Shown: in pieces, positions 38,458-43,267 of the stretch
Layout: each line of letters opens with the position of its first letter
Numbering within the stretch: position 1 is the first letter of the stretch
From: Thermotogae bacterium
GTDB lineage: Bacteria; Thermotogota; Thermotogae; Mesoaciditogales; Mesoaciditogaceae
Reading direction: 5' to 3'
NCBI GenBank assembly: GCA_026988035.1
Contig: JALSLY010000041.1
Span: 1-56,043 of the forward strand
DNA length: 56,043 nucleotides
Notes under the pieces: generated by a model
What the model was told of the DNA's origin: nothing
Seen by the model: the letters and a program-made list of their open reading frames with translations, nothing else
The model's database searches: none
Made by a program: the position numbers and the translations under genes

Positions 38458-38493
38458 CTTTATCTTACCATTTATTCATGCAAAAATATGTGC

Positions 38494-38553: not shown

Positions 38554-38562
38554 TTTACACAA
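38554..38562 (+). repeat. Extra recombinase-type half-site outside the left inverted repeat
   Basis: TTTACACAA here repeats, 15 bp away and in the same direction, the outer arm of the left inverted repeat (38569-38577). Confidence 0.4.
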
Positions 38563-38568
38563 AGGTTC

Positions 38569-38588
38569 TTTACACAAGTTTATTGTGT
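38569..38588 (+). repeat. Left 20-bp inverted repeat (IRL) of the recombinase segment
   Basis: TTTACACAAGTTTATTGTGT is the exact reverse complement of 39465-39484. Within it, the arm TTTACACAA and TTGTGT flank a five-base centre GTTTA, resembling a tyrosine-recombinase core site. The -10 box of the outward promoter lies inside it. Confidence 0.8.
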
Positions 38589-38610
38589 CACAAATTGATG
38601 ATTTTGTCAA
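38582..38610 (-). promoter_or_regulatory. Outward promoter in the invertible segment, pointing to MCP1
   Basis: On the minus strand TTGACA (38605-38610), 17 bp, CACAAT (38582-38587), with an extended TGa just before the -10 box. The -35 is perfect and the -10 matches four of six. The -10 is within IRL, and transcription would start in or at the edge of the repeat and run into MCP1 after a leader of about 165 nt. Confidence 0.65.
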
Positions 38611-38652
38611 TTCTATATTTTGGCCTCTTTAACACGATCTGTCTCTTTAAGT

Positions 38653-38670
38653 CTTCTCACTTGAGTGAGA
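38653..38670. other. Hairpin inside the invertible segment
   Basis: TTCTCACT-TG-AGTGAGAA is a perfect 8-bp inverted repeat lying between the R3 copies and the outward promoter. It could limit read-through from the recombinase gene into the outward transcript, though there is no T-run on the minus strand. Confidence 0.35.
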
Positions 38671-38689
38671 ATTATTAATCCTTCCTTCA

Positions 38690-38836
38690 GATGGCGAGCT
38701 CATATGTCTTGATGAAAACTTCGAGGGGGATGTGAAAAACCTCTTTTTTATAGTTTTGGATTATCTTGTAACGTTTGTGCACAATCTGAGTTTCCTTAAA
38801 AATTTGAATCGTCTTGTAAAATTCACACACAATATG
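38690..38836 (+). repeat. Dispersed repeat R3 (one right end plus a truncated tandem copy)
   Basis: 38690-38793 matches the right end of R1 (GATGGCGAGCTCATATG, then CTTGATGAAAACTTCGAG and the CTTGTAACGTTTGTGCACAA end). 38794-38836 is a second, shorter copy of the terminal 40 bases (TTGAATCGTCTTGTAAAATT). The truncated copy runs up to the recombinase stop codon. Confidence 0.6.
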
Positions 38837-38837
38837 G

Positions 38838-39431
38838 TTACAAATTTAGGTCTATGTATATTTCATCAAGTTGTTCTTGTGTTATACCGATATAGCGCAA
38901 TGTTGTAGATGAACTTGAATGATTTAACATTTTTTGTATGTATTCCACGGACACCCCTTTTTTGTATAATTGATACCCAAATGTTTTACGGAGTGTATGG
39001 GTTCCGATACTTTCGTCTATTCCAACCATCTTTGCGTATTTGTTGAGTAAAAGCCATACGTATTGACGTGTTATAGAACGCGAGCGACCTTTTTTGTGGT
39101 TGCGAGGCGTAAAAATGTAATCGTCTCTTGAAACGTTTTTGAGTGTGTTGAGGTATCTTTCTACCGCATGATGGATCGATTTGTTCATGATAAATATTTT
39201 TGTTTTGCCTGTTTTTTGCTCCTTAATAGTTATCCTCGAGTTTACTTTTTCAATCGTTCCAAATCGATCGAGAAATAGAGACCACTTCATTGACAAAAGA
39301 TCCGAAATACGAAGCCCTGTATTTATGCCTAACACAAATAGTAAGAGGTCTCTGTAAGCCCCTCGTTCCTCCATCAAAGTTTTAATGGCCTTAATCTTCT
39401 TTTTGTCTCGAATAGGCCTAACTTCTTTCAT
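38838..39431 (-). CDS. Short tyrosine recombinase (FimB/FimE-sized), candidate invertase
   Basis: A 197-residue tyrosine recombinase made of the catalytic domain with only a very short N-terminal arm. All catalytic residues are present: R41 (TGLRISD), K73 (EQKTGK), H145 and R148 (HTLRKTFG), H171 (LNHSS) and nucleophile Y180 (TLRYIGI). The size and lack of an N-terminal SAM-like domain match FimB/FimE and other inversion recombinases more than XerC/D or phage integrases. The gene lies within a segment bounded by 20-bp inverted repeats; its TATAAT (39452-39457) is beside the right repeat, and its ribosome site is AAAGGGCGGTGA. No phage genes are nearby. I infer that it inverts the segment that encodes it. 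Confidence 0.85.
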   Translation of the reverse strand: MKEVRPIRDKKKIKAIKTLMEERGAYRDLLLFVLGINTGLRISDLLSMKWSLFLDRFGTIEKVNSRITIKEQKTGKTKIFIMNKSIHHAVERYLNTLKNVSRDDYIFTPRNHKKGRSRSITRQYVWLLLNKYAKMVGIDESIGTHTLRKTFGYQLYKKGVSVEYIQKMLNHSSSSTTLRYIGITQEQLDEIYIDLNL

Positions 39432-39461
39432 ATAATCACCGCCCTTTCGATATTATAAAAC

Positions 39462-39484
39462 TTTACACAATAAACTTGTGTAAA
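39462..39484 (+). repeat. Right inverted repeat (IRR) with full palindromic core
   Basis: TTTACACAA (39462-39470), TAAAC and TTGTGTAAA (39476-39484) form a perfect 9-5-9 palindrome. Bases 39465-39484 are the exact reverse complement of IRL. The asymmetric five-base centre is TAAAC here and GTTTA in IRL, so the sites are head-to-head and strand exchange would invert what lies between. Confidence 0.8.
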
Positions 39485-41203: not shown

Positions 41204-43267
41204 GTGAAAAGACAATTCGTTGTGCTATGGGTACTTTCAACACTCTTCGTTACATCTATGCTGGCATTAACAATTAAAGTGGGAGTATATTCAAACCCGC
41301 CTCTTTCATTTTACAAAAATGGGCAAGCTCAAGGCATATTTCCAGACATTTTAAACTATATAGCTAAAAAAGAAGGATGGACTATTGATTACACCTACGC
41401 GCCCTTTTTTACTCTTTTAAAAGATTTAAAGAGTGCAAAAATAGACGCCGTTTGTTCCATAGCTTATACAGAGGCAAGAGCCAAAACATATAATTTTAGT
41501 AGTGAATATCTTTTGTCAAATTGGGCACAGGTTTATGCACCATATGGAAGCAACATAAACACTCCGTTCGATTTGAATAACAAGCGCGTAGGTGTTTTGA
41601 AATCAGATGTGTTCTACGTTGGAAAGTTTGGCTTTAAATACTTTTTGGATCATCTCGGTGTACACGTTAAGTTCGTGGAATTTAACACCTATTCTGATAT
41701 ATTTAAAGCACTTAAAGAAAGAAAAATAAATGCTGGTGTTGTAGACAGAATTTTCGGTGATGCCAACAAATTCAAGTACGATTTGAAAGAGACTCCCATA
41801 ATATTCTCTCCAATTGAAGAAAGGTTTGCTTTCTCAAAAGAGAGCCTTATTGCGAAGATCGTCGCTCCAATAATAGATAAGTATGTAAAAAAGATGAAAA
41901 TGAATCCGAAATCAGTTCTCTACACATCCATAGACAAGTATCTTGGATATGCGCCTTCAAGATTTGTGATTCCCAAATGGGTGTTTTATCTCATTTACAT
42001 ATCTATCGCCGCATTTTTGGTGCTTATCGCCAACATCTTTGTCTTAAGAAAATTGGTCAAAAAAAGAACAGAAGAACTCAGAAAGAAGAACAAGGAGTTG
42101 CACGTTACCAACGAAGAATTAAACGCCTCCAACGAAGAAATAAACGCTATGAACGAGGAGTTGGAAAAAGCTTACACAACTTTAGAGGCGGCCAATACCC
42201 GGTTCCAGAGCGTGTCAGCTTTGCTTTCTCAATTAGATATGGTAGATGTGAGAGGAGAAGAGTTTTTTAATCAAGTGCTGGATAAAACTTTAGAACTTAT
42301 TCCTCAAGCAAAATATGGGAGTGTTTCCATCTTAGAGGGAGAAAACTGGAACTTTGTAGCATCCAGAGGTCATGATATGGAAATTCTAAAGAGCCTTCCC
42401 TTAAAATTAGAATACGCTTACTTTTCCGACGAAAGTCAAATAGTACCCAATATTCTAAAAGAAAAAAGGGGGTTGCTACCGTCTAAAACATTTGAACAAT
42501 TAAAGAAGGCCACCAAGCCGATCAAGCAAACTTTGATCGCACCCATGAAATTTTCGGATGAAATCATGGGTTACATAACCGTTGATATTCCAAAAGAAAG
42601 TGAAGAGTCCTTCTCGGATGAGGATTTGAAAATGATCGATAATTTTGCCAAAATAGCTTCTGCTTTTTATGTAGCTAGAAGATATCTTAGATCTCACGAG
42701 GAACTTCAAAGCAGACTCATTTTTGTTATGGTTAAGGCGCTTGAGAAGTTTCATGGGTACACAAAGGGGCATTCCGAAAATGTTGCCAGATGTTCCATGA
42801 ATTTGGCAAAAAGGCTTGGTTTGAGTGAAAGAGAACAAAAAAGGATTTACCAAGCCGGTTTGCTTCACGACATTGGAAAAGTATTCGTACCAAGGTCAAT
42901 ATTGGATAAAAATGGTAGCCTCACGGACGAGGAATACGGTGAAGTGAAAAAACATCCAATAATTGGTGCTGAATTGATCGAAGAAGGAGCAAATCTGAAA
43001 GAAATAGCATCAATAGTTCGTTATCACCATGAAAGATGGGATGGTATGGGATATCCGGATGGATTGAAGAGTGAGGAGATACCTTTAGAGTCAAGAATAA
43101 TGGCCGTATGCGATGCTTTTGACGCGATGACGAGCGACAGGGCTTACAGAAAAGCCATGAACAAAAAAAGCGCCTTGGAAGAAATAGAGAAAAATGCCGG
43201 GAAACAATTCGATCCAGCCATAGTGCAAGAATTCTTTAAGATGATAAAGGCTTTAGGTAAAATGTGA
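41204..43267 (+). CDS. Periplasmic-binding-domain/GAF/HD-GYP c-di-GMP phosphodiesterase
   Basis: A 687-residue sensor enzyme. A signal-anchor or signal peptide is followed by a family-3 solute-binding domain at about residues 22-250 (IKVGVYSNPPLSFYKNGQAQGIFPDIL), a membrane helix at about 257-280, a coiled coil rich in NEELNASNEEINAMNEEL, a GAF domain at about 345-480 and an HD-GYP domain. The catalytic residues are intact: LLHDIGK and HHERWDGMGYPDG. It should hydrolyse c-di-GMP under control of a bound small solute. GTG start after AGAGGAAG, 17 bp from MCP2, so the two are likely one transcript. Its stop codon lies at the edge of repeat R4. Confidence 0.93.
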   Translation: MKRQFVVLWVLSTLFVTSMLALTIKVGVYSNPPLSFYKNGQAQGIFPDILNYIAKKEGWTIDYTYAPFFTLLKDLKSAKIDAVCSIAYTEARAKTYNFSSEYLLSNWAQVYAPYGSNINTPFDLNNKRVGVLKSDVFYVGKFGFKYFLDHLGVHVKFVEFNTYSDIFKALKERKINAGVVDRIFGDANKFKYDLKETPIIFSPIEERFAFSKESLIAKIVAPIIDKYVKKMKMNPKSVLYTSIDKYLGYAPSRFVIPKWVFYLIYISIAAFLVLIANIFVLRKLVKKRTEELRKKNKELHVTNEELNASNEEINAMNEELEKAYTTLEAANTRFQSVSALLSQLDMVDVRGEEFFNQVLDKTLELIPQAKYGSVSILEGENWNFVASRGHDMEILKSLPLKLEYAYFSDESQIVPNILKEKRGLLPSKTFEQLKKATKPIKQTLIAPMKFSDEIMGYITVDIPKESEESFSDEDLKMIDNFAKIASAFYVARRYLRSHEELQSRLIFVMVKALEKFHGYTKGHSENVARCSMNLAKRLGLSEREQKRIYQAGLLHDIGKVFVPRSILDKNGSLTDEEYGEVKKHPIIGAELIEEGANLKEIASIVRYHHERWDGMGYPDGLKSEEIPLESRIMAVCDAFDAMTSDRAYRKAMNKKSALEEIEKNAGKQFDPAIVQEFFKMIKALGKM

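Follow-up and report, generated by a model that had tools for sequence, protein, structure and literature searches.

In the fimS switch of E. coli, which is served by FimB/FimE, a promoter is inverted between short repeats by recombinases of about 200 aa that lack an N-terminal domain; the fimS segment measures 314 bp, holds the promoter alone and has one target operon. The RecV switches of C. difficile likewise combine a tyrosine recombinase, short inverted repeats and an invertible promoter (PMC9286219, PMC5903667). RecV acts on several switches from elsewhere, and one of these, the pdcB switch, places an invertible promoter before a gene for a c-di-GMP phosphodiesterase of the EAL type (PMC9286219). 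In Clostridia, including Anaerotignum, Desulfitobacterium and Clostridium thermocellum, sequencing reads gave Sekulovic et al. (2018; PMC5903667) signatures of inversion close to HD-phosphodiesterase, MCP and chemotaxis genes; the same study reported an 844-bp segment of Providencia that encloses a recombinase. In the available portions of that report, the recombinase, the promoter and the control of the target are not worked out for the Clostridia inversions.

Here we describe a locus that resembles each of these systems in part. It lies in a 56,043-nt stretch of DNA from a Thermotogae bacterium (contig JALSLY010000041.1), hereafter the window, in which a 916-bp segment separates two divergent chemoreceptor (MCP) genes (Table 1). 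Like fimS, it combines a recombinase of about 200 aa that has no N-terminal domain with a candidate promoter between short repeats; like the RecV switches, it has a c-di-GMP phosphodiesterase-type gene as a prospective target, in this case HD-GYP and not EAL; and like the inversions of Clostridia, it is a small, predicted invertible segment beside MCP and HD-type phosphodiesterase genes. It differs from the Clostridia cases in belonging to Thermotogota, in carrying the recombinase inside, in its two divergent receptors and in the HD-GYP gene that stands in line with one of them. With the Xer/dif systems (XerA, XerH, XerCD) it shares the catalytic-domain sequence and palindromic arms that resemble the XerD arm, but it has no N-terminal domain, paired inverted sites rather than one dif, and no established link to the terminus. 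We consider it probable that the segment is a self-contained inversion switch, which would serve MCP1 in its present orientation and MCP2 together with the HD-GYP gene when flipped. From its anatomy and by strong analogy to other elements described below, a functional inversion switch in this species is likely.

Table 1. Features of the predicted switch locus, with positions in the window.
Feature	Position	Strand	Remarks
MCP1, 655 aa	36442-38409	-	dCache-like + HAMP + MCPsignal; 160 bp from IRL
Candidate resident MCP1 promoter element (weak)	38461-38469	-	TGGTAAGAT; kept in cassette-free G001
Accessory half-site	38554-38562	+	TTTACACAA; immediately outside IRL; kept in G001 with one change
Predicted invertible segment, 916 bp	38569-39484		bounded by perfect 20-bp repeats
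IRL, left recombination site	38569-38591		TTTACACAA-GTTTA-TTGTGTcac
Candidate outward promoter	38582-38610	-	TTGACA (38610-38605), N17, TG-extended CACAAT (38587-38582); at recombinase 3′ end
Dispersed repeat copy, ~105 bp	38686-38791	+	between recombinase 3′ end and IRL
Tyrosine recombinase, 197 aa	38838-39431	-	catalytic domain only; PF00589, E=1.7e-28
IRR, right recombination site	39462-39484		TTTACACAA-TAAAC-TTGTGTAAA
MCP2, 558 aa	39510-41186	+	HAMP + MCPsignal; start 26 bp from IRR
SBP_bac_3-GAF-HD-GYP c-di-GMP phosphodiesterase-type gene	41204-43267	+	18 bp behind MCP2

The original prediction, that perfect 20-bp inverted repeats (38569-38588 and 39465-39484) bound the segment, was borne out when the sequence was re-read. 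The longest inverted repeat in 40 dinucleotide shuffles of the region reached 13 bp (mean 9.75), and a perfect repeat of 20 bp is far beyond chance. The two sites form an Xer-like pair, with palindromic arms TTTACACAA-N5-TTGTGTAAA around an asymmetric 5-nt spacer. As had been read originally, the core is complete in IRR and one arm is altered in IRL (TTGTGTcac), and the centres are opposite, TAAAC being the reverse complement of GTTTA. Because the arms are palindromic and the asymmetric spacers stand in opposite orientation, recombination would invert the segment; this is the layout of a self-inverting switch, two identical sites in inverse orientation that share one asymmetric spacer. The accessory half-site just beyond IRL (38554-38562) had escaped the original reading. 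Strict sites in the 2.04-Mb genome were limited to this pair, the only pair found, and one lone palindrome on contig C86, while sites with two mismatches showed no excess over a reversed-pattern control. The dispersed repeat inside the segment, which had been overlooked, is probably a passenger. Tens of full or partial copies (GATGGCGAGCTCATATGTCTTGATGAAAACTTCGAGG...GTGCACAATCTGAG) occur in the genome, with others in the related genome G004; it has no Rfam match and folds no better than shuffles, and an Rfam search of the whole region returned no RNA.

The segment encodes a complete tyrosine recombinase, in agreement with the original prediction. In alignment, every catalytic residue of the R-K-H-R-H/W-Y domain that defines PF00589 is present (R41, K76, H145, R148, H171 and Y180), and we infer that the enzyme is active in this organism. 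Its PDB relatives are XerA, XerC and XerD. Similarity to the tyrosine-type invertase models is weak: the FimB/FimE-type models PRK09870 and PRK09871 scored below their cut-offs (45.6 bits vs 222 and 25.7 vs 221), as did the XerA/XerC/XerD equivalogs (XerA, 94.5 bits vs 220), with the match confined to the C-terminal part. A scan of genome contigs and viral contigs with the single protein returned no relative. A profile search yielded 80 named relatives, to which a search of the class around Pelosinus contributed about 40 more loci.

The promoter proposed just inside IRL, TTGACA-N17-TGaCACAAT reading outward to MCP1, is present, and CCTTTC indeed stands without a -35 at the matching place inside IRR. 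It is the top outward promoter candidate of both ends (score 12.8, nominal shuffle p ~0.02); its -10 is off consensus, and promoter-like sites as such are no more numerous in the region than chance would give. In the sequenced orientation it faces MCP1, with no terminator found between the two on the MCP1 strand. After in silico inversion it ends 38 nt ahead of the MCP2 start (25-45 bp in the original proposal). A genome of the same genus (G002) carries a fixed TTGACA-N17-CATAAT promoter 49 nt ahead of its MCP2, about where inversion would put the window promoter, which we count in favor of a switch. The two chemoreceptor genes were found as described, but the SBP-GAF-HD-GYP gene downstream of MCP2 had been overlooked; it is predicted to form an operon with MCP2 and would then switch together with it. 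In another genome of the genus (G001), MCP1 is present (74% identical) without the cassette and without MCP2. Homology between this genome and the window upstream of MCP1 breaks off within the IRL spacer, which fits a crossover point, and it also follows that MCP1 can exist without a switch.

Window-like anatomy recurs in Negativicutes, where we found about 20 recombinase cassettes and about 10 recombinase-less elements, nearly all beside MCP/HD-GYP genes. The cassettes, a set that looks unreported, stand before MCP/HD-GYP operons (L143/L193, L155, L157, L107, L131, L135, L158-L174), and the recombinase-less elements, of 218-488 bp, before MCP/HD-GYP genes (L195-L202, L231-L235). In all, 22 further loci have inverted repeats that span a recombinase of about 190 aa, with total lengths of 0.7-0.97 kb. 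An MCP or HD-GYP/HD gene reads outward within about 550 bp at 19 of the 23 repeat-flanked loci (window included), compared with 3 of about 96 repeat-less relatives, two of them the window's nearest kin (Fisher p = 2e-15, loci counted regardless of kinship; neighbor assignment checked with Pfam on ten proteins). The Negativicutes sites follow the consensus GTAACAYAA-N5-TTRTGTTAC, and searching 20 genomes with the spacer left free gave 72 sites, against 0 or 1 per genome for the reversed control. All 26 site pairs less than 1.5 kb apart are inverted with identical spacers, and 15 different spacers occur overall. No intact recombinase gene lies within the shorter pairs (218-488 bp), and those read with their flanks all adjoin an MCP or HD-GYP gene except for one edge-of-contig case; the 488-bp element (L202), read by eye, appears to contain a decayed recombinase remnant. 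Apparently one recombinase serves several switches in Negativicutes, and the recombinase-less switches of Pelosinus, presumably served in trans, are in this respect comparable to the switches on which RecV acts from elsewhere.

The ends of the Negativicutes cassettes show no enrichment of sigma-A-type promoters. Found in their place was an outward module, RNAGGAWWW-N11/12-RNNGWATWW, which resembles the sigma-H consensus known from Bacillus. Of 20 cassettes, 16 have it at the recombinase 3′ end (0.34 expected) and one at the 5′ end; in the recombinase-less elements, a set only partly independent because the pattern was drawn up after viewing these sequences, it lies at exactly one end in 12 of 13 and at both ends in none. 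The module is absent from the window, whose TTGACA promoter sits at the same, recombinase 3′, end. In most Negativicutes assemblies the module points away from the target, which suggests that these switches were captured in an OFF state.

Orientation differs between relatives. When P. fermentans JBW45 was compared with G122, the flanks of a cassette aligned on the plus strand with 93-95% identity and the cassette itself on the minus strand with 95.5%, the inverted stretch ending at the repeats. JBW45 and P. propionicus likewise have opposite orientations of a recombinase-less switch that adjoins an MCP gene; P. propionicus also holds a same-orientation site pair 15.6 kb apart. Several Negativicutes contigs terminate exactly on the last base of such a site; these contig ends and the P. 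propionicus pair were noted at L203, L204 (G068 C43) and L206 (G082 C29). Such ends would be expected if the reads held both orientations, and other causes are possible. Relatives in Bacillota and Planctomycetota (L083, L103, L124, L126, L142), some on plasmids, were also found; in the first four, one palindromic site precedes the recombinase gene by 130-200 bp, comparable to the single sites of Xer/dif, and these are perhaps multimer-resolution systems.

Within Thermotogota, the family of the source genome also includes Athalassotoga saccharophila and genomes labelled Mesoaciditoga. The source genome has three recombinases of the small, catalytic-domain-only kind, in the window and on contigs C46 and C86. 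The C46 copy (L029, 4210-4818) is 62% identical to the window recombinase and divergent from an HD-GYP-MCP pair; two catalytic residues are lost (R to Y, H to Q), and the locus is likely a dead switch. A relative in G005, at a locus rebuilt from two contigs with an 87-bp overlap, lies between HD-GYP and MCP genes and has lost one catalytic residue (H to E). The C86 copy (L030, 2674-5300; L032-L039) is present almost throughout the family, mostly in an operon where it follows an aminotransferase gene, and a single long palindrome, GAATTTAACACAA-N5-TTGTGTTAAATTC, lies upstream of that gene in many of the genomes. In G004 (99% complete) no PF00589 protein other than the C86-type recombinase was found, so this recombinase may with its palindrome be the family's Xer/dif pair, perhaps a single-recombinase system that lacks an N-terminal domain. 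GC skew in Athalassotoga was too irregular to place this site relative to the replication terminus. Another Thermotogota genome (G368:C1:1159263-1173187) has two recombinases 13 kb apart that are closely related (58%) to that of the window, and the relative in G055 (L031) adjoins an apparent CRISPR array. A search of the other 102 Thermotogota genomes (103 with the source genome) gave no second cassette of this kind and no closer relative.

In a tree, the window recombinase groups with its C46 and G005 kin (100/94), inside a Thermotogota clade and far from the Negativicutes cassettes, and the cassette trait requires at least three changes. Given this position, and with no other cassette found among the Thermotogota relatives examined, convergence probably explains the resemblance to Negativicutes; a single ancient gain of the trait followed by losses is possible. 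The behavior of the Negativicutes elements thus serves as an analogy for the window, its cassette apparently being of separate origin.

The anatomy and its non-randomness, the intact active-site residues, the identity of the spacers, the candidate outward promoter at one end and the flips of like elements in Pelosinus lend good support to the invertible promoter switch of the original prediction; its clean alternation between MCP1 and MCP2 is plausible. Because G001 keeps MCP1 without the cassette, a promoter of its own may drive MCP1, and control by the switch may fall mainly on MCP2 and the HD-GYP gene. In that event the segment would still invert, with MCP1 transcribed mainly from a promoter between IRL and its start codon. 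G001 shares a TGGTAARAT element close to MCP1, the Negativicutes switches usually have their target on one side only, and MCP2 starts 26 bp from its site compared with 160 bp for MCP1. The best promoter at present faces MCP1, however, with an apparently terminator-free path to it, and we regard this version as unlikely. It is more doubtful that the switch was formerly active and is now locked or decaying in the MCP1 orientation. The altered IRL arm, the catalytic residues missing from the sister recombinases of C46 and G005 and the entry of the ~105-bp repeat into the segment would fit such decay, but an intact recombinase and two repeats without a mismatch in 20 bp, spacer included, are what continued exchange would predict.

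The remaining alternatives do without a recombining pair or without a switch. The sites could act as autoregulatory operators, or could stem from duplication of one dif/res-like resolution site: in many relatives, some of them on plasmids, one palindrome precedes the recombinase gene or its operon, and Negativicutes recombinase promoters contain an extra half-site. Spacers that are identical within pairs yet diverse between loci, together with the orientation flips in Pelosinus, make this very improbable. A small mobile element with terminal inverted repeats, lying between two MCP genes by chance, would also carry its own recombinase between inverted repeats and could explain why G001 homology ends at the site. 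Yet the genome holds one intact copy, the paralogs lack such repeats, no target duplication was seen, and the coupling to MCP/HD-GYP genes is strong in two phyla; we rejected this explanation for want of further intact copies in the genome and give it hardly any weight.

In the self-contained switch that we favor, the catalytic-domain-only, Xer-type recombinase would bind both palindromic sites, and strand exchange within the identical 5-nt spacers would flip the 916-bp piece, recombinase gene included. In the sequenced state, the outward promoter would read into MCP1, possibly aided by transcription running on from the recombinase gene; after a flip, the same promoter would read into MCP2 and the adjoining HD-GYP gene. 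The promoter and its exact effect on MCP1 and MCP2 are, like recombinase activity, what we infer from this arrangement, and a two-way choice between MCP1 and MCP2 plus HD-GYP is plausible on sequence grounds. Cells of one clone would then differ in chemoreceptor and c-di-GMP output.

The original prediction knew of no recombinase switch that alternates two chemoreceptors. This has to be narrowed, as inversions near chemotaxis and HD-phosphodiesterase genes were reported from reads for Clostridia in 2018 (PMC5903667); our literature search, mostly outside subscription journals, returned no paper on a two-chemoreceptor switch or on such switches in Thermotogota or Pelosinus. It seems to us evenly balanced whether chemoreceptors and HD-GYP proteins are regular targets of recombinase-borne switches with at least two origins (Thermotogota and Negativicutes), of which the window would be the first two-way version. 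The familiar cases of phase variation concern surface antigens and restriction systems; here it is apparently aimed at sensing, through chemotaxis receptors and c-di-GMP enzymes. The Negativicutes elements, with their sites, outward module and apparently shared recombinase, offer a ready test system in culturable Pelosinus. If the two-way reading is true, clonal cells differ in their chemotactic senses, one receptor being swapped for another receptor plus a c-di-GMP phosphodiesterase, and the locus would represent a convergently evolved form of chemotactic bet-hedging, encoded in DNA orientation and countable in existing sequencing reads.
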